Assembly: GCF_000013365.1 (NCBI RefSeq)
Contig: NC_007778.1
Coordinates: 930,001 to 994,000, forward strand
Reading direction: 5' to 3'
Source of the DNA: Rhodopseudomonas palustris HaA2
GTDB lineage: Bacteria > Pseudomonadota > Alphaproteobacteria > Rhizobiales > Xanthobacteraceae
Length of the DNA: 64,000 bases
The position numbers and the translations under genes were made by a program. The notes below the pieces were generated by a model. The model was given only the letters and a program-made list of their open reading frames with translations. It was not told where the DNA came from and searched no databases. Shown piece after piece: positions 8,709 through 61,894 of this stretch. The first letter of the stretch is position 1. The number at the start of each line of letters is the position of its first letter.

Positions 8709-9509
8709 ATGAAAGTTCTTCTGGTCTTCGCCCATCCCGAACCTCTTTCGCTGAATGGCGCTCTGCGCGACGCCGCGGTCGCGGAGCTGCAGCGCCAGGG
8801 CCACGAGGTGCGGATCTCGGACCTCTATGCCCAGAACTGGAAGCCCGCGATCGACCGCGCCGATTTTCCGAACCTCGCGCCTGACGAGCGCTTGCTGACG
8901 AGCGCGGCCTCCAAGGCGAGCTTCGACGCCGGAGAGCTGACGCAGGATGTCCGCGCCGAGATCGACAAGCTGCTCTGGGCGGATGTCCTGATCCTGCAAT
9001 TCCCGCTGTGGTGGTTCAGTATGCCGGCGATCCTCAAGGGCTGGGTCGACCGCGTCTACGCCTGCGGATTTGCCTATGGGGTCGGCGAGCACAGCGACGA
9101 GCGATGGGGTGACCGTTACGGCGAAGGCAATCTGGCCGGCAAGCGCGCGATGCTGATCGTGACCACCGGCGGCTGGGAACAGCACTACGGCGCCCGCGGC
9201 GTCAACGGGCCGATCGACGACCTGCTGTTTCCGATCCACCACGGCATTCTGTTCTACCCGGGCTACGACGTGCTGCCGCCGTTCGTCGTGTATCAGGCCG
9301 GCCGTCTCGACCAGGCGGGGTTCGAAATCACCGCCGAGCAGCTGCGCGAGCGGATGCGCACGCTCGCGACCACGCCGCCGATTCCCTACCGGCGCCAGAA
9401 CGGCGGCGACTACCTGATCCCGAGCATGGAGCTGCGCCCCGGTCTGGGCGCCCCCGGCAGCAGCGGCTTTGCACTCCACTTGCGGGACGAGACGGCGGCC
9501 CCGCTGTGA
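8709..9509 (+). CDS. Flavodoxin-fold NAD(P)H:quinone oxidoreductase (NQO1/MdaB-like)
   Basis: A 266-aa flavoprotein with the flavodoxin-2 fold. The FMN/FAD phosphate-binding region is HPEPLSLNGAL near the N-terminus, and the QFPLWWFSMPAILKGWVDRV segment (about residues 96-115) is diagnostic of the NQO1/MdaB/YwrO group. The expected reaction is two-electron reduction of quinones or electrophiles. Its divergent LysR neighbour is the likely regulator. GAGGAGCC upstream of the ATG is a plausible ribosome-binding site. The C-terminal 60 residues extend beyond the minimal family length. Confidence 0.85.
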   Translation: MKVLLVFAHPEPLSLNGALRDAAVAELQRQGHEVRISDLYAQNWKPAIDRADFPNLAPDERLLTSAASKASFDAGELTQDVRAEIDKLLWADVLILQFPLWWFSMPAILKGWVDRVYACGFAYGVGEHSDERWGDRYGEGNLAGKRAMLIVTTGGWEQHYGARGVNGPIDDLLFPIHHGILFYPGYDVLPPFVVYQAGRLDQAGFEITAEQLRERMRTLATTPPIPYRRQNGGDYLIPSMELRPGLGAPGSSGFALHLRDETAAPL

Positions 9510-9583
9510 CAGCGGTCCGCGATACCATTCGCCGGCAGCGGAGATGCAGAAGGTTGTTAACGCTTTCCGGCTAAGCTGCGGCG

Positions 9584-9784
9584 ATGGACATGAGCATGAT
9601 CAGTGCGGCGCTCGGCATGCAGGCGAGCAGCACGCAGATGCAGATCGCGACGACGATCCAGGCGTCGAACGCCCGGACCGAACGCGACACCGTGCAGACG
9701 CTGCTCGGCATCGGGCAGGGCGGTTCGTCGTCGCTCGCCAATGTCGGCGCCGGGATCGGCGGCAATCTCGACATCACCGCCTGA
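9584..9784 (+). CDS. YjfB-like putative motility protein
   Basis: A 66-aa protein matching the small YjfB-like (putative motility protein) family: it begins MDMSMISAALGMQASS, then a helix rich in Gln, Ala and Thr, and a Gly/Ser-rich tail. There is no signal peptide. No flagellar genes are nearby, so the motility label rests on the family name only. It is convergent with the DUF1428 gene. Confidence 0.65.
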   Translation: MDMSMISAALGMQASSTQMQIATTIQASNARTERDTVQTLLGIGQGGSSSLANVGAGIGGNLDITA

Positions 9785-9805
9785 TCCGCCGTCAGGCGTC
9801 TCCGC

Positions 9806-10156
9806 CTACACCAGCTTCTTGAAGCCGCCGAAGAACATCCGCTTGGTGTCGAACGGCATCGTGTTGTGGTCCAGGCCGCCCAGCCGCGGGTCCTGCATCG
9901 CCTTGGCCATCACCCGGTCGCGCTGCTTGCGCGATTTGTAGACGATGTAGGAGAACACCACGATCTCGTTCGGCTTCAGCTTCACGCTGCGCGGAAACGA
10001 GGTGGTCTTTCCAGGCGACACGTCGTCGGCGACCCACTCGCGATAGTCGATCGCGCCATGCTCGCGAAACACCTTCTCGGCCTTGCGCGCCAGCTTGGCG
10101 TAGTCCGCCAGCTTGGCTTTCGGCACCGGCACGACGAACCCGTCGACATAGGACAT
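9806..10156 (-). CDS. DUF1428 family protein (YbaA-like)
   Basis: A 116-aa protein starting MSYVDGFVVPVPKAKLADY, the hallmark of the DUF1428/YbaA family, which adopts a dimeric alpha-beta-barrel fold. The C-terminal PFDTKRMFFGGFKKLV ending is also typical. The start at 10156 has an excellent ribosome-binding site (GGGAGGAGAAC), which decides against longer upstream versions. The biochemical function is unknown. Confidence 0.9.
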   Translation of the reverse strand: MSYVDGFVVPVPKAKLADYAKLARKAEKVFREHGAIDYREWVADDVSPGKTTSFPRSVKLKPNEIVVFSYIVYKSRKQRDRVMAKAMQDPRLGGLDHNTMPFDTKRMFFGGFKKLV

Positions 10157-10266
10157 CCGTTCTCCTCCCCGATCTGTCTGCGTCCGCAGCAGCATGCGGC
10201 CGGTCGCAGGACGATCGAAGCGAGAACTGTCCGACAACCCGGCGCCGGGTCCTTTTGTCGCGGCTG

Positions 10267-10935
10267 CTATTTTGGCAGCGCGCCCTTGACCAGCGCCAGC
10301 GCGTCGGCACTGTCCCATTCGGCGGGGCCGGCGATGGTGGCGATCTCGCAGCCCTGACCATCGACCAGCACCGAGGTCGGCATCCCCAGCGCGCGGCCGA
10401 CGCTCTTGAGGTCCTGGAACACCCGGGCCGAGGCGTCGGTGAAGTAGTTCAGCCGGGTCAGCTTCTCGTCGTCGAGAAACTTCTTAGGCTTGGCCGGGTC
10501 GCGGGTGTCGATGTTGATCGCCACCACCTCGAACTGCGGGCTGCCGAGCTTCGCCTGCAGATTGTCGAGCGCGGGCATTTCCTTGCGGCAGGGCACGCAC
10601 CAGGTCGCCCACAGGTTCACCAGCAGGGTCTTGCCGCGGAAGTCGGACAATTTCTTCGGCTGGCCGGCGCCGTCCTGGAAAATCAGGTCGGGCAGCTTCA
10701 GCGGTGCCGAGGCCATCGTCACCGCCGCAACTTCCCCGCGCGCCAGCGGCTTGAGCTGCTGCGCCAGCGCCACCGCCGGCCGGCAGGTCGGATCGCCCGA
10801 TGCATTGCGCTGCAGCCCGCCGATCCCGTATACCCCCGCTGCTCCGGCGACCACGAGCACGGCGATCGCGGCCAGAATGATGGTGCGGCGGCCGGCGCGG
10901 CGCGGCGGGGTGAGGTCGGGCGGGGTCTCGGTCAT
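10267..10935 (-). CDS. tlpA: TlpA-like membrane-anchored thiol:disulfide oxidoreductase
   Basis: Thioredoxin-fold protein (222 aa) anchored by one N-terminal helix (about residues 19-40), with the catalytic domain in the periplasm. The active site is [13 protein letters not shown] (CxxC, about residues 113-116), and the cis-Pro is in [10 protein letters not shown]. TlpA is known in Bradyrhizobium as the reductant for cytochrome oxidase CuA maturation. The divergent neighbour argH is the same arrangement seen in relatives. An extra Cys in CRPA and one in QGCE lie outside the active site, as in TlpA. Confidence 0.88.
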
Positions 10936-11030
10936 CAGGCACTCAACACCGGATAGCTGCGCAGGCTCGCAGGCGGCTGCTGGCGGGTTCGAACAAAGGC
11001 AAAGGCGGGCATGATCGTGAGCGGCACACT

Positions 11031-12428
11031 ATGAGCAACAAAATGTGGGGCGGCCGGTTCACGGATCGCCCCGATGCGATCATGGAAGAGATCAACGTCT
11101 CGATCGACGTCGACCGGCATCTTTACGCCCAGGATATCGCCGCGTCCAAGGCCCATGCCGCCATGCTTGCCGCGCAGGGCATCATCACCGCGAACGATGC
11201 GAAAAATATCGGCAAGGGTCTAGACACGATTCTGTCAGAGATCGGCGCCGGCAAGTTCACCTTCAAGCGCGCGCTCGAAGACATCCATATGAATGTCGAG
11301 AGCCGGCTCGCCGAGTTGATCGGCCCCGCCGCCGGGCGGCTGCACACCGCGCGCTCGCGCAACGATCAGGTCGCGACCGATTTCCGGCTCTACGTCCGCG
11401 ACGTGCTCGACGAGACCGATGCGGCGCTGGCGGCGTTTCAATTCGCGCTGGCGGAGCGGGCGCTGGAGCAGGCCGACACCGTGATGCCCGGCTTCACCCA
11501 TCTGCAGACCGCCCAGCCGGTCACCTTCGGTCATCATCTGATGGCCTATGTGGAGATGGCAGCGCGCGATCGCGGCCGTTTCCAGGATGCCCGCAAGCGG
11601 CTCAACGAAAGCCCGCTCGGCGCCGCGGCGCTGGCCGGCACCTCGTTCCCGATCGATCGCCATGCCACCGCGCAGAAGCTCGGCTTCGTCCGGCCGATGG
11701 CGAATTCGCTGGATGCGGTGTCGGACCGCGATTTCGTGCTGGAGACGCTGTCGGCGGCGTCGATCTGCGCGGTGCATCTGTCGCGCTTCGCCGAGGAGAT
11801 CGTGATCTGGACCTCGCCGCTGGTCGGCCTGATCCGGCTGTCGGACAAGTTCACCACCGGCTCCTCGATCATGCCGCAGAAGCGCAATCCGGACGCCGCC
11901 GAGCTGGTCCGCGCCAAGACCGGCCGGGTGATCGGCGCGCTCAACGGCCTGTTGATCGTGATGAAGGGCCTGCCGCTGGCCTATCAAAAGGACATGCAGG
12001 AAGACAAGCAGGGCGCGATGGAGGGCTTCGCGGCGCTGTCGCTGGCGATCCGGGCGATGACCGGCATGGTCCGCGACCTCGTGCCGGAGCACGACCGGAT
12101 GCGGGCGGCCGCCGGCGAGGGCTACGCCACCGCCACGGACCTCGCCGACTGGCTGGTGCGGACGCTGAAGATGCCGTTCCGCGACGCGCACCATGTCACC
12201 GGCCGGATCGTCGGCCTCGCCGCCAAGCAGGGCCTGGCGCTGCACGAACTGCCGCTCGCCGAGATGCAGGCGGTGGAAAAGCGCATCACCAGGGATGCGC
12301 TGGCGGTGCTCAGCGTCGAATCCTCGGTGAAGAGCCGCACCTCTTACGGCGGCACGGCGCCGAAGAACGTCCGCGCGCAGGCCAAGGCGTGGCTCAAGCG
12401 ACTGGAAAAAGAGCGGAAATTGGGCTGA
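11031..12428 (+). CDS. argH: Argininosuccinate lyase
   Basis: Last step of arginine synthesis: argininosuccinate to arginine plus fumarate (465 aa, standard length). The start [10 protein letters not shown] and the superfamily signature [12 protein letters not shown] (about residues 282-293, with the catalytic Ser loop) are unmistakable. The [12 protein letters not shown] segment supplies substrate-binding residues. It is followed by the small lipoprotein gene lptM and lysA, probably one transcription unit in the order argH-lptM-lysA. Confidence 0.97.
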
Positions 12429-54403: not shown

Positions 54404-55372
54404 TCACGCCCGCGGCCGGAACGTGGCGTGGTCCGACGGCTGCGCATTCGTCAGCGCCCGATGCCACAGTCCGAACGGAGACGTCGCGGCACTGTCGAAC
54501 ATCACGCCGGTGAGGCGGGCCGCGGCGGCTTCGACATTTGCCCGGCCGATCCAGGCGCGCTGGCATTCGTCGGCCCGCGCCGCGAGCCGCGGCGTCGCGC
54601 TGCCGAGGATCGCCTCGATGGCCGCGCCGGGGTCGTGGGCCCGGCCGGTGGCGGTCTGCGTCCCGAGCAGCAGCCCGGCAATGCCGGCGATCAAAGCGGC
54701 CGAGTAGTTCGCGCCGCGGCGCTCGCCGATGCCGCCTTCCAGCGTCGCGCCGATCAGCCTGGCGCCGGGGACCGCGATGCCGATCTCGTGCAGGCTGGCG
54801 TCGCTGCCGCCGATCAGCCGGCCGTTTCTGTCGATCGCGCCCACCGGGAGAAGATTCACCGCGCCGCAGCGGCGCAGCAGGCTGGCGCAGCCATCGCGGC
54901 CGGCGCCGGCGACGATCAGCGCGTTGTGGTCGTTGCACAGCGCCACGGCCGCGCTCAGTTCGGCGGTCGGCTGCCGCCGCCCGTCGAACAATCCGCCGCT
55001 GATGTGGAGGATGTGGGCGCCGTGATCCAGCGCCATCACGATCGCCTGCGCCAGATCGGTCTGGGAGCAGCCCGGCCGGTCGTCGCCGAAGATCGGTGCG
55101 ATCAGCCCGCGGCAGAGCGGCGCGACGCCTTCGACCGAACTGCAGGGCTGGCCGAAAATCAGACTCGCCAGATGCGTGCCCTGCGCGCTGGCGAATTCCT
55201 CGGCGCATCGCGCCGCAGCCGGCGTGTCGAGCGGAGCCAGCCGCGCGCCGCGAAAACAATCATGTGTGCGATCCACCGGCCCATCCAGCACCGCGATGGT
55301 GATCTGCGGATCTCCGCCACCGAACGCGAACAGAAGGTCCTGCTGGAAATCCGCCCCTGCGACCCCTACCAT
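54404..55372 (-). CDS. PatA/PatG-type subtilase homologue, predicted catalytically dead
   Basis: A 322-aa cytosolic S8-family protein. The match to cyanobactin maturation proteases is specific: ITIAVLDGPVDRTHDCFRG (Asp), QGTHLASLIFGQP (His), APLCRGLIAPIFGD, LAQAIVMALDHGAHILHISG. The nucleophile block GTSFATP of the family reads GANYSAA here (Ser to Asn), and the oxyanion Asn in AGNDGC reads AGRDGC (Arg). Two essential residues are thus lost, so proteolysis is unlikely; substrate or leader-peptide binding may remain. It is divergent from the regulator gene at 55615. No RiPP precursor was firmly identified. Confidence 0.8.
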   Translation of the reverse strand: MVGVAGADFQQDLLFAFGGGDPQITIAVLDGPVDRTHDCFRGARLAPLDTPAAARCAEEFASAQGTHLASLIFGQPCSSVEGVAPLCRGLIAPIFGDDRPGCSQTDLAQAIVMALDHGAHILHISGGLFDGRRQPTAELSAAVALCNDHNALIVAGAGRDGCASLLRRCGAVNLLPVGAIDRNGRLIGGSDASLHEIGIAVPGARLIGATLEGGIGERRGANYSAALIAGIAGLLLGTQTATGRAHDPGAAIEAILGSATPRLAARADECQRAWIGRANVEAAAARLTGVMFDSAATSPFGLWHRALTNAQPSDHATFRPRA

Positions 55373-55614: not shown

Positions 55615-57384
55615 ATGATCGAAGTTATGTCGGAGACGTCGTTGCGCTTTTCGGTCAGATTGCTGGGGCCATTCCAGCTGTCGACGCCGGACGGTCGACG
55701 CGTCGAGATTTCCAGCAAGAAGGGGACGGCCGTCATCGCCATGCTGGCGATGTCGCGCGACGGTGAGCACACCCGTGGCTGGCTGCAGGATCGACTGTGG
55801 GGCAGTCGCGGCCATGCCGAAGCGGCGGGAAGTCTGCGCCGCGAATTGTCGAATCTGCGAAAGCTTCTGAATGGCGCCGGCATCGAATTGCTGGTCAGCG
55901 ATCGTGACCGCGTCCGCCTGCGGCTCGACCGGATCGTCGTCGACGCCCGCGATCCGAGCGCCGATCCGGCCATCGCCGGCGAATTTCTCGAAGGCTTCGA
56001 TATTCCCGGCGAGGCCAGCTTCCGCGATTGGCTGCGCGAGCAGCGCGCGCGGCTGATGCGCGGACCGCGCCCACCGGCGCCCGCCGCGCCGGTGCCGGGC
56101 GGGCTGCCCAGCCACATCCTCGACACCAGCCAGCCGCCCGTCGGCTTCACCGGCAATCAGGCGATCGCGGTGCTGCCGTTCACCAACGTCACCGGCGACG
56201 AGACGCTGGACTATCTGGCCGAGGGCATCAGCGAAGAGCTGATCGTCGGCCTGTCGCGGATTCGCTGGCTGCCGGTGATCGCGCGCAGTTCGAGCTTTTC
56301 CTTCGCCGACACGATCGACCGCAAGGTGATAGGCCAGCGGCTCGGCGCGCATTATCTGATCGAGGGGCATCTGTATCGCGCCTACGATTCGTTCGGAGTC
56401 TCCGCCAGCCTGTCGGAGGCGGCGACCGGCTACGCGATCTGGTCGCGGCGTTTCACGCTGCAATCGCCGGCGCTCCGCGACGAACTCGAGCAGTTCGTCA
56501 ACGAACTGGTGGCGCAGCTCGAGATCAGGATCGAGCACGCCGAGCAGATCCGCATCCGCAACAAGCGCCAGGACGCGCTCGGCGTCAGCGACCTGATCTG
56601 GCGCGGCCGCTGGCACCTCAACCGGCTGACCCGCGCCGATTCCGACATGGCGCAGAAGCTGTTCGCCGACGCGTTGGCGCTCGATCCGGACTCGGCGGAG
56701 GCGCTGATCCAGGTCACCTCGGCGCTCGGCTGGTCGATCTGGGCCGGCCGCCAGCCGCAGGAGCAGATCCTGCGGATGCGCAAGCTGGCGAAGCAGGCCA
56801 GTCTCGCCGACCCCGACGACGGCCGCGGCTTCATGCTCGCCGGCATCGCCGAGATGTGGCTGCGCCATCCGCACGAGGCCAAGACCCTGCTGCAGCACGC
56901 GATCGCGCTCAATCCGAGCCTCGCGCTGGCGCACGCCCAGCTCGGCGGCTGCTACAATCTCGCCGGCGAGCCGGCCAAAGCGATCGATCACCTCAAGGCG
57001 TCGCTGCGGCTGAGCTCGAACGATCCGAACATCTTCTATGCGCTGGGCGAACTGGCGATGTCGCACACCATGTGCGGCCGCTGGGCCGACGCGGCCGAGC
57101 ACGCCTCGCTGTCGCTGGCCCGCCGCCCGGCCTATTGGTACGCGCACGTTCTCAAGATCAACGCGCTGGCGCGCGGCGGTCATCTCGCCGCGGCGCGGCT
57201 CGCGACCGATGAATTACTTGCTGTCAAGCCGAATTTTTCGCGGCGTTACATCGAATGGTTGCCGTTCGTCGATAGAACATGGATTGACCATTTCGTCGAA
57301 GGCCTGAAAATGGTGCCGGGCCGCGACGCGGACTGGCTGGAGCGCGACAGTCAAGAAAGCCCCGCGCATTTTGAGCCGAATTGA
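55615..57384 (+). CDS. SARP-like winged-helix regulator with TolB-like and TPR domains
   Basis: A 589-aa cytosolic regulator. The N-terminal SARP/OmpR-type DNA-binding domain (about residues 10-115; VRLLGPFQLSTPDGRRVEI, GSLRRELSNLRKLL) is followed by a TolB-like domain (from about 181; IAVLPFTNVTGDETLDYLAEG) and TPR-like repeats (about 350-560; LAHAQLGGCYNLAGEPAKAI, GELAMSHTMCGRWADAAEHA). The same set occurs in CadC/cyclase-related regulators that lack a cyclase. It ends 40 nt before the P450-DyP gene, so it probably regulates it from the same transcript. Confidence 0.82.
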   Translation: MIEVMSETSLRFSVRLLGPFQLSTPDGRRVEISSKKGTAVIAMLAMSRDGEHTRGWLQDRLWGSRGHAEAAGSLRRELSNLRKLLNGAGIELLVSDRDRVRLRLDRIVVDARDPSADPAIAGEFLEGFDIPGEASFRDWLREQRARLMRGPRPPAPAAPVPGGLPSHILDTSQPPVGFTGNQAIAVLPFTNVTGDETLDYLAEGISEELIVGLSRIRWLPVIARSSSFSFADTIDRKVIGQRLGAHYLIEGHLYRAYDSFGVSASLSEAATGYAIWSRRFTLQSPALRDELEQFVNELVAQLEIRIEHAEQIRIRNKRQDALGVSDLIWRGRWHLNRLTRADSDMAQKLFADALALDPDSAEALIQVTSALGWSIWAGRQPQEQILRMRKLAKQASLADPDDGRGFMLAGIAEMWLRHPHEAKTLLQHAIALNPSLALAHAQLGGCYNLAGEPAKAIDHLKASLRLSSNDPNIFYALGELAMSHTMCGRWADAAEHASLSLARRPAYWYAHVLKINALARGGHLAAARLATDELLAVKPNFSRRYIEWLPFVDRTWIDHFVEGLKMVPGRDADWLERDSQESPAHFEPN

Positions 57385-57424
57385 TCGGCGAGACCGATTT
57401 TGATGTGTTTTTTTGAGGTGGCCG

Positions 57425-60400
57425 ATGTTCACGCTCAAGTACTACGACGCGATCAAGAAAGCCCAGTCCGACACCGCTTCCGCCCCGCCCGCTCCGATCC
57501 TCCCGTTCAATCTCGACGACCTCGGCGCCGACACCACGCTGAAGCGCTGGACCAGCTGGGGCTTCGGCTGGCTGATGCGCGGAGCGCTGCATGTCTTCCG
57601 CGAGGTCTGGCCGAATCCGCAATTCGGTCGTCTGATCATCGTCACCCGCGAGACCGACGTTCGTGACGTGCTGGCGCAGCCCGGCCTGTACGAGGTGCCC
57701 TACGGGCCGGAGATGACCGAACTCGCCGGCGGCACCAATTTCGTGCTCGGCCTCGAGGGTCCGGAGCACGACCGCCAGAACGCCATCATCCGCAGCGTGC
57801 TGCGCCCGGCCGATCTCGATCGCATCAGGGAATTGTCCGCGCACTACACGACGATCCTGCTCGACGCCTCCGGCGGCCGCATCGACGTGATGAAGGATCT
57901 GATGACGCGGGTCGCGACCGAAACCTGCTGCGGCTATTTCGGCCTCGAACCGGAGGATCCGGACGCCTTCGCCGAATGGGCGATGTCGATCTCGGCGCTG
58001 TTGTTCGCCGATCCGTTCGGCGACGCCGCGACGCGGCGGCTGGCGCTGAACGGCGCCGCACAGGTCCGCGAGGTCATCGACCGCGCCATCGCGCGCGCCA
58101 AGGCGGCGCCGGAAACCGACACCGTGGTCGGGCGCCTGGTGGCGCAGGCGCACGACGGCGTCGTCACCGAGGACGAGATCCGCGCCATCATCGTCGGCCT
58201 CGTCACCGGCTTCATCCCGACCAACACGCTCGCCGCCGGCAAGATGCTCGACGAATTGCTGCGCCGTCCGAAAGTGTGGGCGGAGGCGATCGCTTGCGCC
58301 GGCCGCGACGACGTCGCCGGGCTGCAGGCGATCCTGCTCGAAGCCGGCCGGCTCAATCCGGCGCTGGCGCCGGGGCAGTGGCGCTACGCGACGCAGGACG
58401 GCGTGATCGCGCACAACACCAGCCGGCAGCGCCGGGTCAAGGCCGGCTCGGTGCTGATGGTGGCGACGATGTCGGCGCTGCGCGACAAGCGCGCTTTCGT
58501 GGCGCCGGGGTCGTTCCGCGCCGACCGGCCGAACGATTCCGGCCTGATGTTCGGCGACGGCGCCCATGTCTGCCTCGGCAAGCACGTCGCGATCACGCAG
58601 ATCACGCAGGTGTTCCGCGGGCTGCTGCAACAGCCGAATCTGCGCACCGCTTCCGGCAAGGATGGCGCGATCGGCTGGGTCGGTCCTTTCCCGCGCCGGC
58701 TCGACATGGAGTTCGAATCGCGGGTCGCGCCGCAGACCCAGAACATGGTGGTGATCTGCGCACCGGTGCGTCCCGGCGCCGATCTCGACACCTTGCGGAC
58801 GCAGATCACCGCGCTCGGCAATCCGGCGCGGCCGGAGCTGGTCGCGGCGTTCGAGGCGACCGGCATCGTCCACTTCGCCTCGATGACGCTGATCGACGCC
58901 GGCACGCCCGAGCAGCCCGCGCCGCATCTGTTGCTCGAGCTCAATGTCGACGGCACCCCGGACGGCGCGATCCGCGCCGTGGCCGAGGTCGCCGGACAAT
59001 GGCTGGCGCCGATCTTCGCGCAGGCCGACGCGCCCGCCGGCGCGGCGCTGATCGACATCCTGCGCGACAACACGCTCGATCTGCAGACCCGGCCGTGGGG
59101 CGCGATCGGGCTGAACTTCAACGGCACGCCGGAATTCGCCGTCGGCGATATCATCCGGCAGCGCGAGCTGGCGCAATTCGCCCAGGACGCGCTGGAGGAC
59201 TATCTCGAAAATCACGCCTGCCTCGGCAGCCGCGCGATGGTGGCGCTCGGCTATGTCCGCAAGCTGATCCGGCAGGACCCCGCGCTGAAGCGGACCATCG
59301 ACGAATCGCCGGACTCGCCGCGCAGGGCGCGGCTGCAGGCGCTGTTCGCCCGCGGCGCGGCGTTCACCCAATATCTGATCCGGCCGAGCCGGCGGCGGCT
59401 CAAGATCTCCGACTGGGTGCCGCGCTCCGGCACCGACTCGCTGCTGTCGCTGCTCGGCTCGCCGACTTTCCAGTGGATCGGCGCGATCGTCGCCGCGCTG
59501 GTGCTGATCGCCGGCCAGGCGATCTATTTCGCGATCGAGCCGTTCTCGGACGCGACCTATCTTGGCCGCATCGCGCTCGCCTTGGTCGGCGGGATTTTGC
59601 TGGTGGCGCTGATCCTCGCCGCACTCGGCGGGCTGTTCCTGCTCGTGCTGAACGACTACGAATCGCGCGACGTTCCCGACGACAGCGACCCCGATCTCGG
59701 AAAGGTCCGCGAGATCGCCGCCAGCGAGAACCATCCCGGCTTCATCCAGAACCACATCACCGCGGTCACCACGCTCAAGCCCGGCTGGTTCCGGAAACTG
59801 ACGCTGGCGCTGTCGCTGTGGGGCATCAAGGAGCTGGTGACGCACTGGTATCGCCCCGGCTTCGTGCTCAACATGGGCACCATCCACAAGGCGAAATGGT
59901 TCCGGCCGCCCGGCACCGACAAGCTGATCTTCCTCGCCAATTACGACGGCAGCTGGGAGAGCTATCTCGAGGACTTCGTGATGAAGGCCCATGCCGGCCA
60001 GTCGGCGGCGTGGAGCAACGGCGTCGGCTTTCCGCGCACCCGCTTCCTGATCTTCGACGGCGCGCAGGACGGCGATCGCTTCAAGCGCTGGGTGCGGCGC
60101 CAGCAGGTGCCGACCCAGTTCTGGTTCAACCGCTATCCGCAACTCACCACCGACGACATCCGCCGCAACGCCATGATCCACGACGGCCTGGTCCGCGCCT
60201 CGACCGACAGCGCGGCGCGGGCGTGGCTCGATTGCTTCGGCTCGATGACCCGGCCGAACTATGCGATCGAGACTCCCGAGGTGCAGTCGCTGGTGTTCCG
60301 CGCGATGGGGCAGCTCGACCACACCGCGACCGCATTGCTGCGGCTGCCCGCGGACCGGGGCGCGGGCAAGGAATGGCTGCGCGCGATCATGCCGGAGGCG

Positions 60401-61894
60401 GGGCTGCTGCAGGATCCGCAGGCGCCGCGGCCCGCGATCGGCGCGATCACCTTCGGCGATCGACCGTTCGTCGGCGGCGACGCCGCGCACAATGTCGCGA
60501 CCTTCGTCGCCTTCTCGGCGAGCGGGCTCGGCAAGCTCGGCCTGTCGGCGCGCAACGCCAATGACGGGCTGACCACGTTCCCGACCGCGTTCAACATTGG
60601 CATGTCGCAGCGCGCCAACATCCTGCGCGACACCGGCGCGTCGAAGCCGGAGCGATGGGATTGGGTCGACGCCGCGCTGGAGGGCAGCGACGGGGCGGCG
60701 GCGGCCGACGCCACGCTGTTCGTCTACGGCAAATCCGCCGAGGTCTGCCGCAAGGCGCTCGACGCGCATGCGGCGCTGCTCGGCGGCCGCGATGCGCTGC
60801 TCTACGTCGTCGAGACCAGCCCGCCGACGGTCGACACCCCGGACGGTCCGAAGACCTCGCTGGAGTACGAACATTTCGGCTTCGTCGACGGCATCTCGCA
60901 GCCGGTGATCAAGGGCACCCAGCGCTTCGCCAAGGGCGTGCCGGCGCGCGACATCGTCGAGCCCGGCGAGTTCATTCTCGGCTATCGCAACAATCAGGGT
61001 TACTTTCCGCCGAGCGCGACGGTGGCCAGCAGCTCCGATCCGGCCAATCATCTGCCGATCCTGCCGGATCTGCTGCCGAGCCGGTTTCCGAATTTCCGCG
61101 CCGATACGCCGGCCAAGCCGGTGCGCGATTTCGGCCGCAACGGGACTTTTCTCGCGATCCGCCAGTTCGTGCAGGACGTCGACGGCTTCAAGGCGTTCAC
61201 CGAAGCCAAGGCGCAGGAGCTGTCGAAATATCGCGACCTCGCAGCGGTGATCGGCGAGACGCCGACGGCCGAATGGGTGGCGGCGAAGATGATGGGGCGC
61301 TGGCGCAACGGCGTGCCGCTGGTCGACAAGCCGAATTCCACCACCTTCAACACCCGTCGCGGCAAATCGCGTAGCGACGCGCGCGATCCCTACGACCGCG
61401 ACAACGACTTCGCCTACGGCCAGGACGATCCGCAGGGGCTGCATTGTCCGTTCGGCGCGCATATCCGCCGCGCCAATCCGCGCGACAGCCTGCAGCCCGA
61501 CGATCCGACGCAGCAGCAGCTCACCGCGCGGCACCGGCTGCTGCGCCGCGGCCGCTCGTTCGAAGCCGGGCAGGGCAGTGGCGGGCCGGGTCGCGGCGGC
61601 AAGCCGGAAAAGGGCCTGCTGTTCGTCGCGGTCTGCGCCGACGTCGAACGCCAGTTCGAACTGGTGCAGCAATCCTGGGTGTCGTCGCCGTCGTTCCACG
61701 GCCTCAGCCACGAGCCGGACCCGATCATCGCGTCGGCGCCCGACGATCCGGCGAAAAAGCGCGTCTTCACCATCCCGACCGCCGCCGGCCCGCTGACCCT
61801 GCACGGTATCCACAGCTACGTCACGGTGACAGGCGGCGGCTACTTCTTCATGCCGAGCCGCTCGGCGCTGCAATATCTGATCGATCTGGAGTGA
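57425..61894 (+). CDS. Cytochrome P450 - membrane - DyP peroxidase fusion
   Basis: A single 1489-aa chain. Residues about 1-430 are a cytochrome P450 with ExxR (EAGRLNP, E306/R309) and the heme loop FGDGAHVCLGK (Cys383). After a linker come two hydrophobic helices (about 685-704 and 713-742), a conserved domain of unknown role (about 765-940; LANYDGSWESYLEDF, AAWSNGVGFPRTRFL), and a DyP-type peroxidase (about 960-1489) with the distal Asp in GFVDGISQP (D1155), the proximal His in CPFGAHIRRANPRD (H1346) and the catalytic Arg in HRLLRRG. Heme ligands of both domains are intact. The I-helix is GFIPTNT, without the acid-alcohol pair. GAGG lies 6 nt before the ATG at 57425. Confidence 0.9.
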   Translation: MFTLKYYDAIKKAQSDTASAPPAPILPFNLDDLGADTTLKRWTSWGFGWLMRGALHVFREVWPNPQFGRLIIVTRETDVRDVLAQPGLYEVPYGPEMTELAGGTNFVLGLEGPEHDRQNAIIRSVLRPADLDRIRELSAHYTTILLDASGGRIDVMKDLMTRVATETCCGYFGLEPEDPDAFAEWAMSISALLFADPFGDAATRRLALNGAAQVREVIDRAIARAKAAPETDTVVGRLVAQAHDGVVTEDEIRAIIVGLVTGFIPTNTLAAGKMLDELLRRPKVWAEAIACAGRDDVAGLQAILLEAGRLNPALAPGQWRYATQDGVIAHNTSRQRRVKAGSVLMVATMSALRDKRAFVAPGSFRADRPNDSGLMFGDGAHVCLGKHVAITQITQVFRGLLQQPNLRTASGKDGAIGWVGPFPRRLDMEFESRVAPQTQNMVVICAPVRPGADLDTLRTQITALGNPARPELVAAFEATGIVHFASMTLIDAGTPEQPAPHLLLELNVDGTPDGAIRAVAEVAGQWLAPIFAQADAPAGAALIDILRDNTLDLQTRPWGAIGLNFNGTPEFAVGDIIRQRELAQFAQDALEDYLENHACLGSRAMVALGYVRKLIRQDPALKRTIDESPDSPRRARLQALFARGAAFTQYLIRPSRRRLKISDWVPRSGTDSLLSLLGSPTFQWIGAIVAALVLIAGQAIYFAIEPFSDATYLGRIALALVGGILLVALILAALGGLFLLVLNDYESRDVPDDSDPDLGKVREIAASENHPGFIQNHITAVTTLKPGWFRKLTLALSLWGIKELVTHWYRPGFVLNMGTIHKAKWFRPPGTDKLIFLANYDGSWESYLEDFVMKAHAGQSAAWSNGVGFPRTRFLIFDGAQDGDRFKRWVRRQQVPTQFWFNRYPQLTTDDIRRNAMIHDGLVRASTDSAARAWLDCFGSMTRPNYAIETPEVQSLVFRAMGQLDHTATALLRLPADRGAGKEWLRAIMPEAGLLQDPQAPRPAIGAITFGDRPFVGGDAAHNVATFVAFSASGLGKLGLSARNANDGLTTFPTAFNIGMSQRANILRDTGASKPERWDWVDAALEGSDGAAAADATLFVYGKSAEVCRKALDAHAALLGGRDALLYVVETSPPTVDTPDGPKTSLEYEHFGFVDGISQPVIKGTQRFAKGVPARDIVEPGEFILGYRNNQGYFPPSATVASSSDPANHLPILPDLLPSRFPNFRADTPAKPVRDFGRNGTFLAIRQFVQDVDGFKAFTEAKAQELSKYRDLAAVIGETPTAEWVAAKMMGRWRNGVPLVDKPNSTTFNTRRGKSRSDARDPYDRDNDFAYGQDDPQGLHCPFGAHIRRANPRDSLQPDDPTQQQLTARHRLLRRGRSFEAGQGSGGPGRGGKPEKGLLFVAVCADVERQFELVQQSWVSSPSFHGLSHEPDPIIASAPDDPAKKRVFTIPTAAGPLTLHGIHSYVTVTGGGYFFMPSRSALQYLIDLE

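Follow-up and report, generated by a model that had tools for sequence, protein, structure and literature searches.

The window analysed in this work, a stretch of 64,000 nucleotides from the genome of Rhodopseudomonas palustris HaA2 (NC_007778.1, positions 930,001 to 994,000), carries on its forward strand an open reading frame (ORF) at 57425-61894 which encodes 1489 amino acids (aa) without a single stop and joins a cytochrome P450, a membrane hairpin and a DyP peroxidase in one chain. The chain contains a conserved module, made up of an atypical P450, membrane helices flanked by a pair of domains (probably dimeric alpha+beta barrels, DAB), and a DyP whose catalytic residues are intact, and is one form of this module, which also occurs as two or three genes. 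The protein is tentatively regarded as a membrane-held two-heme enzyme whose P450 would not activate O2 but would split a peroxide or a lipid hydroperoxide.

Domains of the 1489-residue protein

A GAGG stretch lies shortly before the ATG start of the frame, and a gene on the same strand, that of the regulator in Table 1, ends 40 bp upstream. Scanning the translated chain against Pfam and NCBIfam up to E 1 placed the P450 at the N-terminus and the DyP at the C-terminus, with no match for aa 421-984, no reductase or ferredoxin domain and no cyclooxygenase-like peroxidase domain, the second heme domain being the DyP. The initial annotation, which had proposed this combination in one frame with both heme-ligand motifs and the DyP distal Asp intact, was thus borne out by the open frame, by Pfam, TIGR and solved-structure matches, and by the presence of every motif it quoted. 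An assembly join or frameshift at about 59,400, which it had named as a possible artefact, was ruled out, as the frame is unbroken in 16 further loci. An overlapping minus-strand frame of 1549 aa (57224-61873) was read as a high-GC mirror ORF.

The P450 domain scored 33.2 bits against the PF00067 cut-off of 22.8. Its heme site was compared with 37 P450s of the system, which include a Burkholderiales pair and the P450 of locus L041 and leave out L078 (which duplicates L012), the P450 fragment of L082 and the remnant in L019. The Cys heme ligand and the ExxR motif are present in 37/37. The acid that precedes Thr in the I-helix (Asp or Glu) is found in none of the 37 in the alignment, against 26/26 background P450s, and in the window segment TGFIPTNT Pro replaces it while the adjoining Thr is retained. 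Thr or Ser next to this position occurs in 30/37 system and 25/26 background P450s; one alignment had its register shifted by one residue, and the acid is missing in both registers, while the tally of retained Thr depends on the register. A strict regular expression for the acid matched 19/23 background and 0/35 system P450s; it was used with the alignment in place of a looser one, which had matched outside the I-helix in 9/35 system P450s. The 26 background sequences were 23 of the best-scoring from the host and its relatives plus 3 further host P450s, the 23 being the yield of 30 loci, of which 7 gave no row, with many near-copies from close relatives. The AlphaFold2 (AF2) model of the P450 (mean pLDDT 57.9) was left out of the fold search.

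Loss of the I-helix acid argues against an ordinary O2-dependent monooxygenase that merely leaks H2O2 or product to the DyP heme, a version of the passage of a product or peroxide between the two hemes that the initial annotation had considered possible. The intact Cys loop and ExxR motif, the Thr or Ser kept in most system P450s and the location of both hemes in one chain would suit such an enzyme, which is nevertheless quite unlikely given the missing acid, the lack of a reductase or ferredoxin domain in the Pfam and NCBIfam scans, and the five loci, described below, where a catalase-like protein takes the place of the P450. No Fer2 ferredoxin, the only ferredoxin type searched for, is encoded near the window locus, the nearest of 17 in the genome lying about 61 kb away.

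The DyP domain matched TIGR01413 with E 1.6e-24 and 86.8 bits (curated cut-off 100.5), Dyp_perox_C with 19.9 bits (cut-off 20) and DyP_N with 17.6 bits (cut-off 27.5), hence below the curated cut-offs, two of them narrowly. Its closest solved sequences, aligned over both DyP halves, are 8re3 (whole-sequence E 2.2e-39) and 8re2 (1.4e-37), two forms of the DyP of Deinococcus radiodurans according to PMC10820274. Among the aligned DyPs the proximal His and the distal Arg occur in 44/44 and the distal Asp (GxxDG) in 43/44, the exception being L014, with Glu; the window protein has all three. No second TIGR01413 match was found at E <= 0.001 in the host genome (one 5.33-Mb contig). Insertions in the DyP lengthen the fused proteins of L018 (1331-6415, a 1694-aa frame of the same-genus genome G028) and of L092 (7736-12598, 1620 aa, Sulfitobacter).

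The region between the two enzymes has, as noted initially, a conserved domain without a Pfam family. The conservation of the domain placed at about aa 765-940 was confirmed; it proved not to be a lone domain: on each side of the hairpin lies a half, at about aa 421-668 and about aa 756-925, the two are homologous (HHalign E 2.9e-12), and the domain is the latter of them. The second half is also homologous to 200-240-aa DAB proteins encoded beside DyPs (E 3.4e-19), and its alignment (A1) contains 32 invariant columns in 10 sequences. AF2 runs, based on six sequences (the window and L010-L014), gave for the first half a ferredoxin-like core at about aa 439-548 (pLDDT blocks 64-89; order strand, helices, strand, strand, helix) and two helices for the hairpin; with a mean pLDDT of 45.4 for the region overall, only these two parts were usable, and the second half had no confident model. 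In Foldseek the best match to the first half was an antibiotic-biosynthesis-monooxygenase (ABM-type) domain (prob 0.96, E 0.066), with none at 0.001, and the A1 profile gave no meaningful match to solved structures (one, E 1.9). From these models and profile comparisons, the middle region probably consists of two ferredoxin-like DAB halves around the hairpin. The idea that the halves are a degenerate DyP found no support, HHalign showing no similarity (E 0.19-0.57).

Hydropathy analysis revealed transmembrane (TM)-like stretches between the halves in the window protein and in 13/13 relatives examined; L068, L075 and L076 have a single one, and some split forms have three or more. At L041, L042, L044, L045 and L046 the DyP gene follows two small DAB genes that are separate from each other; a P450 of the family is also encoded at L041. 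In L084 the halves lie in separate ORFs (9131-9829 and its neighbour; 232 and 515 aa), either through a gene split or through a sequencing frameshift.

Fused, split and catalase-containing forms of the module

The search for the architecture in relatives, proposed initially, found it as one unbroken ORF at 16 loci besides the window (L010-L014, L017, L018, L067-L071, L073, the plasmid loci L091, L092 and L094; L078, a copy of L012, was not counted), which include Rhodopseudomonas, Bradyrhizobium, Pararhizobium, Novosphingobium and Sulfitobacter. The statement that no characterised enzyme has this architecture holds, as no P450-DyP protein was found among open-licence papers; the architecture itself is not isolated. 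A scan of genome contigs returned seven loci, comprising five full-length copies (Rhodopseudomonas sp. AAP120, B29, R. pseudopalustris, an R. palustris metagenome-assembled genome and Bradyrhizobium sp. U87765) and two Burkholderiales records matched in their DyP part. Within the genus, a frame 1483-1694 aa long with a P450 match was seen in 7/13 genomes, the host included, and 3/11 had the middle domain in one of the profile searches; over both counts the gene is patchy (7/16 distinct genomes).

A profile of the second DAB half (A1) matched at E <= 1e-3 in 26/398 phylum and 23/198 family genomes and at E <= 1e-20 in 14/297 order genomes. These sets of sampled Pseudomonadota genomes overlap, and merging them left 34 distinct places at E < 1e-20. 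A DyP is encoded at all 34, a P450 of the family at 28, a catalase-like protein at five (L075, L076, L077, L111 and L112), both at none, and neither at one (L074); the wide models used for this scoring were partly built from the same loci, and presence had also been detected independently beforehand. L111 is only 7 kb long, and a P450 may lie further away there. The 28 P450 loci comprise 10 with a single fused ORF, two with a DAB-DyP fusion after a P450 gene (L107, L109), 15 with separate adjacent ORFs (among them L084, with its DAB in two ORFs, and L082, with its P450 cut by the contig end) and one remnant. The last, in L019, is a 146-aa ORF (10922-11362) that matches the P450 over a short length and adjoins an intact DAB-DyP pair, and was read as a decayed P450.

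Outside the 34, the Rhizobium plasmid locus L093 has neither partner within its 20.6 kb, and none was recognised by the models used at the DAB-DyP plasmid loci L098 and L100. Exo_endo_phos proteins adjoin the DyP in the partnerless loci L093 (12232-13329) and L074 (10506-12002). The two Burkholderiales loci, L015 (3841-7068) and L016 (7248-10445), encode DyP and then P450 in one ORF, which is the opposite order; the P450 of L015 matched Pfam with E 1.3e-15, and a DAB-like stretch before the DyP was seen by eye only, the DAB models giving no match. The L015 fusion adjoins genes for a winged-helix NB-ARC protein and Sel1 proteins.

In a P450 tree of 39 rows, from which L082 and L019 were left out, the 34 system rows form one clade apart from three host P450s and the Burkholderiales pair, the latter falling with the other host P450s on long branches. 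The 17 fused rows group together (89/78) and are joined by the two-gene rows (96/94), and two three-gene arrangements form separate clades (100/98 and 100/99). Groups in the DyP tree (50 rows) largely match: fused, two-gene and L093 rows fall together (99/100) and the five catalase-type rows form one group (82/82), with the long-branched L089 apart. This agreement is consistent with co-inheritance and with a fusion that proceeded in steps. One or two fusion events may lie behind the fused form: the P450 tree groups the fused rows, and the DyP tree needs two changes.

The catalase-like partner was examined with a profile of eight such proteins (A4), which gave five matches among solved sequences up to E 1: the coral allene oxide synthase-lipoxygenase (AOS-LOX) entries 1u5u (5e-4) and 3dy5 (0.0025), over about 60 of 362 positions, then two catalases (0.046 and 0.2) and 3e4w (0.62), which we take to be a bacterial protein resembling catalase-related allene oxide synthase (cAOS). 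Pfam Catalase gave sub-threshold matches for three of the eight alone; two of the proteins in the P450 position (L076 and the L077 chain) had no Pfam match at E <= 0.001, and a phmmer search of solved sequences with one catalase-like protein found none. The motif R-x-x-x-Y occurs in 10/10 of these proteins. At the position of the catalase distal His, 5/5 proteins from small-DAB loci retain His, and 5/5 from P450-position loci have Asn. At L077 the catalase-like protein is both adjacent and fused: a 911-aa ORF (9155-11890, forward strand) carries a catalase-like domain at the C-terminus of the DyP, as a counterpart of the P450-DyP fusion. At L099 (5794-9027) a small DAB gene and a gene of the catalase family flank that of the D. 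radiodurans DyP whose structure has been studied.

Neighbouring genes and coordinates

Neighbours were compared over 34 loci, a set different from the 34 A1 loci. A regulator homologue, linked by single-linkage BLAST, was found in 14/14 fused loci of this set (13 distinct); its window member combines C-terminal TPRs with an N-terminus that weakly resembles SARP/AfsR, and the one from Pararhizobium L094 contains a cyclase domain. A cyclase-AAA-TPR cluster covers 11/11 loci with the gene order P450, DAB, DyP (one member, from L081, checked with Pfam), and a Crp-type cluster covers 15 loci (one member, from L020, likewise checked). The features of the window are collected in Table 1.

Table 1 Features of the 1489-aa chain and of two neighbouring genes, in window coordinates.
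Feature	Position	Strand	Basis
Cytochrome P450 domain, aa 1-420	57425..58684	+	PF00067; many solved bacterial P450s matched
I-helix segment TGFIPTNT, aa 261-268	58205..58228	+	Alignment, 37 system and 26 background P450s
K-helix ExxR (EAGR), aa 306-309	58340..58351	+	37/37 system P450s
Heme-thiolate loop FGDGAHVCLG, Cys383	58550..58579	+	Cys in 37/37 system P450s
First DAB half, aa 421-668, probably ferredoxin-like	58685..59428	+	HHalign, AF2 core, Foldseek (not significant)
Membrane hairpin, TM-like stretches aa 677-703 and 724-742	59453..59650	+	Hydropathy, AF2 helices
Second DAB half, aa 756-925	59690..60199	+	A1 alignment; HHalign to small DAB proteins
DyP peroxidase domain, aa 985-1489	60377..61891	+	TIGR01413 (under cut-off); 8re3/8re2
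DyP distal GFVDGISQP, Asp1155	60878..60904	+	Asp in 43/44 aligned DyPs
DyP distal Arg1246 (NGTFLAIRQ)	61139..61165	+	44/44 aligned DyPs
DyP proximal His1346 (CPFGAHIRRANPRD)	61445..61486	+	44/44 aligned DyPs
Upstream regulator, AfsR/SARP-like N-terminus (weak) and TPRs	55615..57384	+	TPR over cut-off; AfsR far under cut-off
PatA/mycosin-like subtilase, divergent; system membership uncertain	54404..55372	-	PF00082 46 bits; TIGR03895 E 1.4e-49, under cut-off

Such control genes bear on a role in peroxide defence, in which the DyP and the P450 or catalase-like protein would simply remove H2O2 or organic peroxides at the membrane during stress, under cyclase/CRP or SARP-type control. The cyclase-AAA-TPR and Crp-type genes beside the split forms and the catalase fold of the partner that replaces the P450 in 5/34 loci speak for this role. 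It is unlikely all the same, as Asn occupies the place of the catalase distal His in the five replacing proteins, a P450 would make an unusual scavenger and the gene is patchy within the genus. The chain, the subtilase and the regulator gave no PADLOC match up to E 1, and a defence system was discarded as a candidate.

Homologues of the subtilase lie beside the locus in L010-L013 and L017, and none was found in the fetched stretches of L014 and L018. A different subtilase gene lies downstream of the fused gene in L068, and a trypsin-like peptidase is encoded near L093. Together with the PatA/mycosin-like subtilase beside the Rhodopseudomonas loci, these peptidases could point to a small pathway of specialised metabolite or peptide maturation with two heme enzymes. 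This is very unlikely in view of L014 and L018 and of the failure to recognise a precursor peptide, small ORFs not having been searched systematically.

A fatty-acid gene, namely for oleate hydratase, 3-hydroxyacyl-CoA dehydrogenase or acyl-CoA thioesterase, is close by in five of the six catalase-DAB-DyP plasmid loci viewed (L096, L097, L099, L113 and L114), L096 and L113 looking like the same segment. The sixth, L115, has iron-transport genes nearby, and at L100 the DAB-DyP pair has a gene for 5-aminolevulinate synthase in its vicinity. These surroundings bear on heme handling or sensing, in which the DAB barrels and the DyP would bind heme or porphyrin or hand it on, with the P450 as a non-catalytic heme-thiolate partner. 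In favour of this, the P450s and the catalase-like partners alike have lost canonical distal residues, and ferredoxin-like barrels include heme binders (PMC4835899). Such a role is nonetheless improbable, since the distal Asp and Arg of the DyP are conserved and the neighbours in most catalase-type loci viewed are fatty-acid rather than heme-uptake genes, L115 and L100 excepted.

Possible chemistry and known counterparts

In the favoured reading, that of a membrane-held two-heme enzyme, the DAB pair and the hairpin would hold both hemes at the cytosolic face of the inner membrane, a placement suggested because the N-terminus of the window protein lacks a TM-like stretch and the hairpin puts both ends on one side. 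The P450 would skip the normal O2 and electron cycle and, without a redox partner, cleave or rearrange a substrate of the peroxide type, most probably a lipid hydroperoxide, as do CYP74, CYP8A and the P450 half of fungal Ppo. The DyP would use H2O2 on the same pathway, either making an oxygenated radical or hydroperoxide for the P450 or reducing its product. The catalase-like stand-in may do the job of the P450, much as coral cAOS compares with the plant P450 allene oxide synthase; a hydroperoxide substrate is favoured because P450s and catalase-type proteins are the two known allene oxide synthase solutions (PMC5617202). A narrower version, a bacterial oxylipin machine in which the membrane-anchored DyP turns unsaturated lipids into a hydroperoxide and the redox-partner-free P450, or a catalase-fold protein without distal His, rearranges it, appears somewhat unlikely.

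Several observations weigh against peroxide or hydroperoxide splitting. Thr or Ser beside the lost acid, retained by most of the system, may still allow O2 chemistry, ferredoxins encoded elsewhere in the genome could serve it, and the background P450s are best-scoring matches in close relatives, many of them near-copies. The exchange of P450 for catalase-like protein amounts to about one event (five rows, in one DyP group supported at 82/82), and the Fisher value of 2e-5 obtained for it treats related rows as independent, with no independent rows behind it. The A4 match to solved structures is weak and short, and the catalase-like genes of L111 and L112 lie on the strand opposite the DyP. With Asn aligned at the distal His of cAOS and catalase, the proteins in the P450 position are not simple cAOS equivalents. 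Finally, the lipid link rests on the catalase-type loci, because fatty-acid genes lie near only one of the four P450-type plasmid loci viewed (L091).

Among known systems, the fungal Ppo/DOX-P450 fusions have a cyclooxygenase/animal-peroxidase-type half and not a DyP, lack the DAB pair and hairpin, and show the reverse domain order. They and the oomycete CYP5619 likewise combine a peroxidase-type domain (linoleate dioxygenase in the fungal case) and a P450 in one chain, and the P450 half of the fungal enzymes handles hydroperoxides and needs no electron donor (PMC13049297 for the fungal enzymes). Coral AOS-LOX, the best, albeit weak, solved match of the stand-in in five loci, differs in that the partner of its cAOS is a lipoxygenase and its distal His, H67, is present, against Asn here (PMC5617202). 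The window protein would work like fungal Ppo and coral AOS-LOX and yet belong to neither class, because its oxidising half is a DyP.

Peroxide-driven P450s of the CYP152 and CYP74 groups lack the usual acid-alcohol pair, and CYP74 has a different heme loop. Neither name occurs among the best 60 of 277 solved matches to the window P450. Both the CYP152 fatty-acid peroxygenases and the CYP74 clan work with peroxide or hydroperoxide (PMC9112060, PMC8124189). The D. radiodurans DrDyP (DR_A0145; 8RE2/8RE3), the closest solved relative of the DyP domain, differs in being stand-alone, with neither P450 nor membrane hairpin; PMC10820274 treats it alone, and the word 'catalase' is absent from its main text.

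To our knowledge, the natural substrates of most DyPs are unknown. The conserved association of a DyP with either an atypical P450 or a protein resembling catalase, which some lineages have fixed as a single chain, offers a direct handle on the roles of these DyPs. The module would be a bacterial, membrane-bound addition to the small set of double-heme enzymes and may provide useful peroxide-driven biocatalysts. If the oxylipin proposal were true, it would be a third independently evolved pairing of a peroxidase or oxygenase with a heme isomerase, beside fungal Ppo and coral AOS-LOX, and would supply a natural role for a DyP. Taken together, the fused and split forms and the catalase-like substitution suggest an undescribed peroxide chemistry at the membrane.

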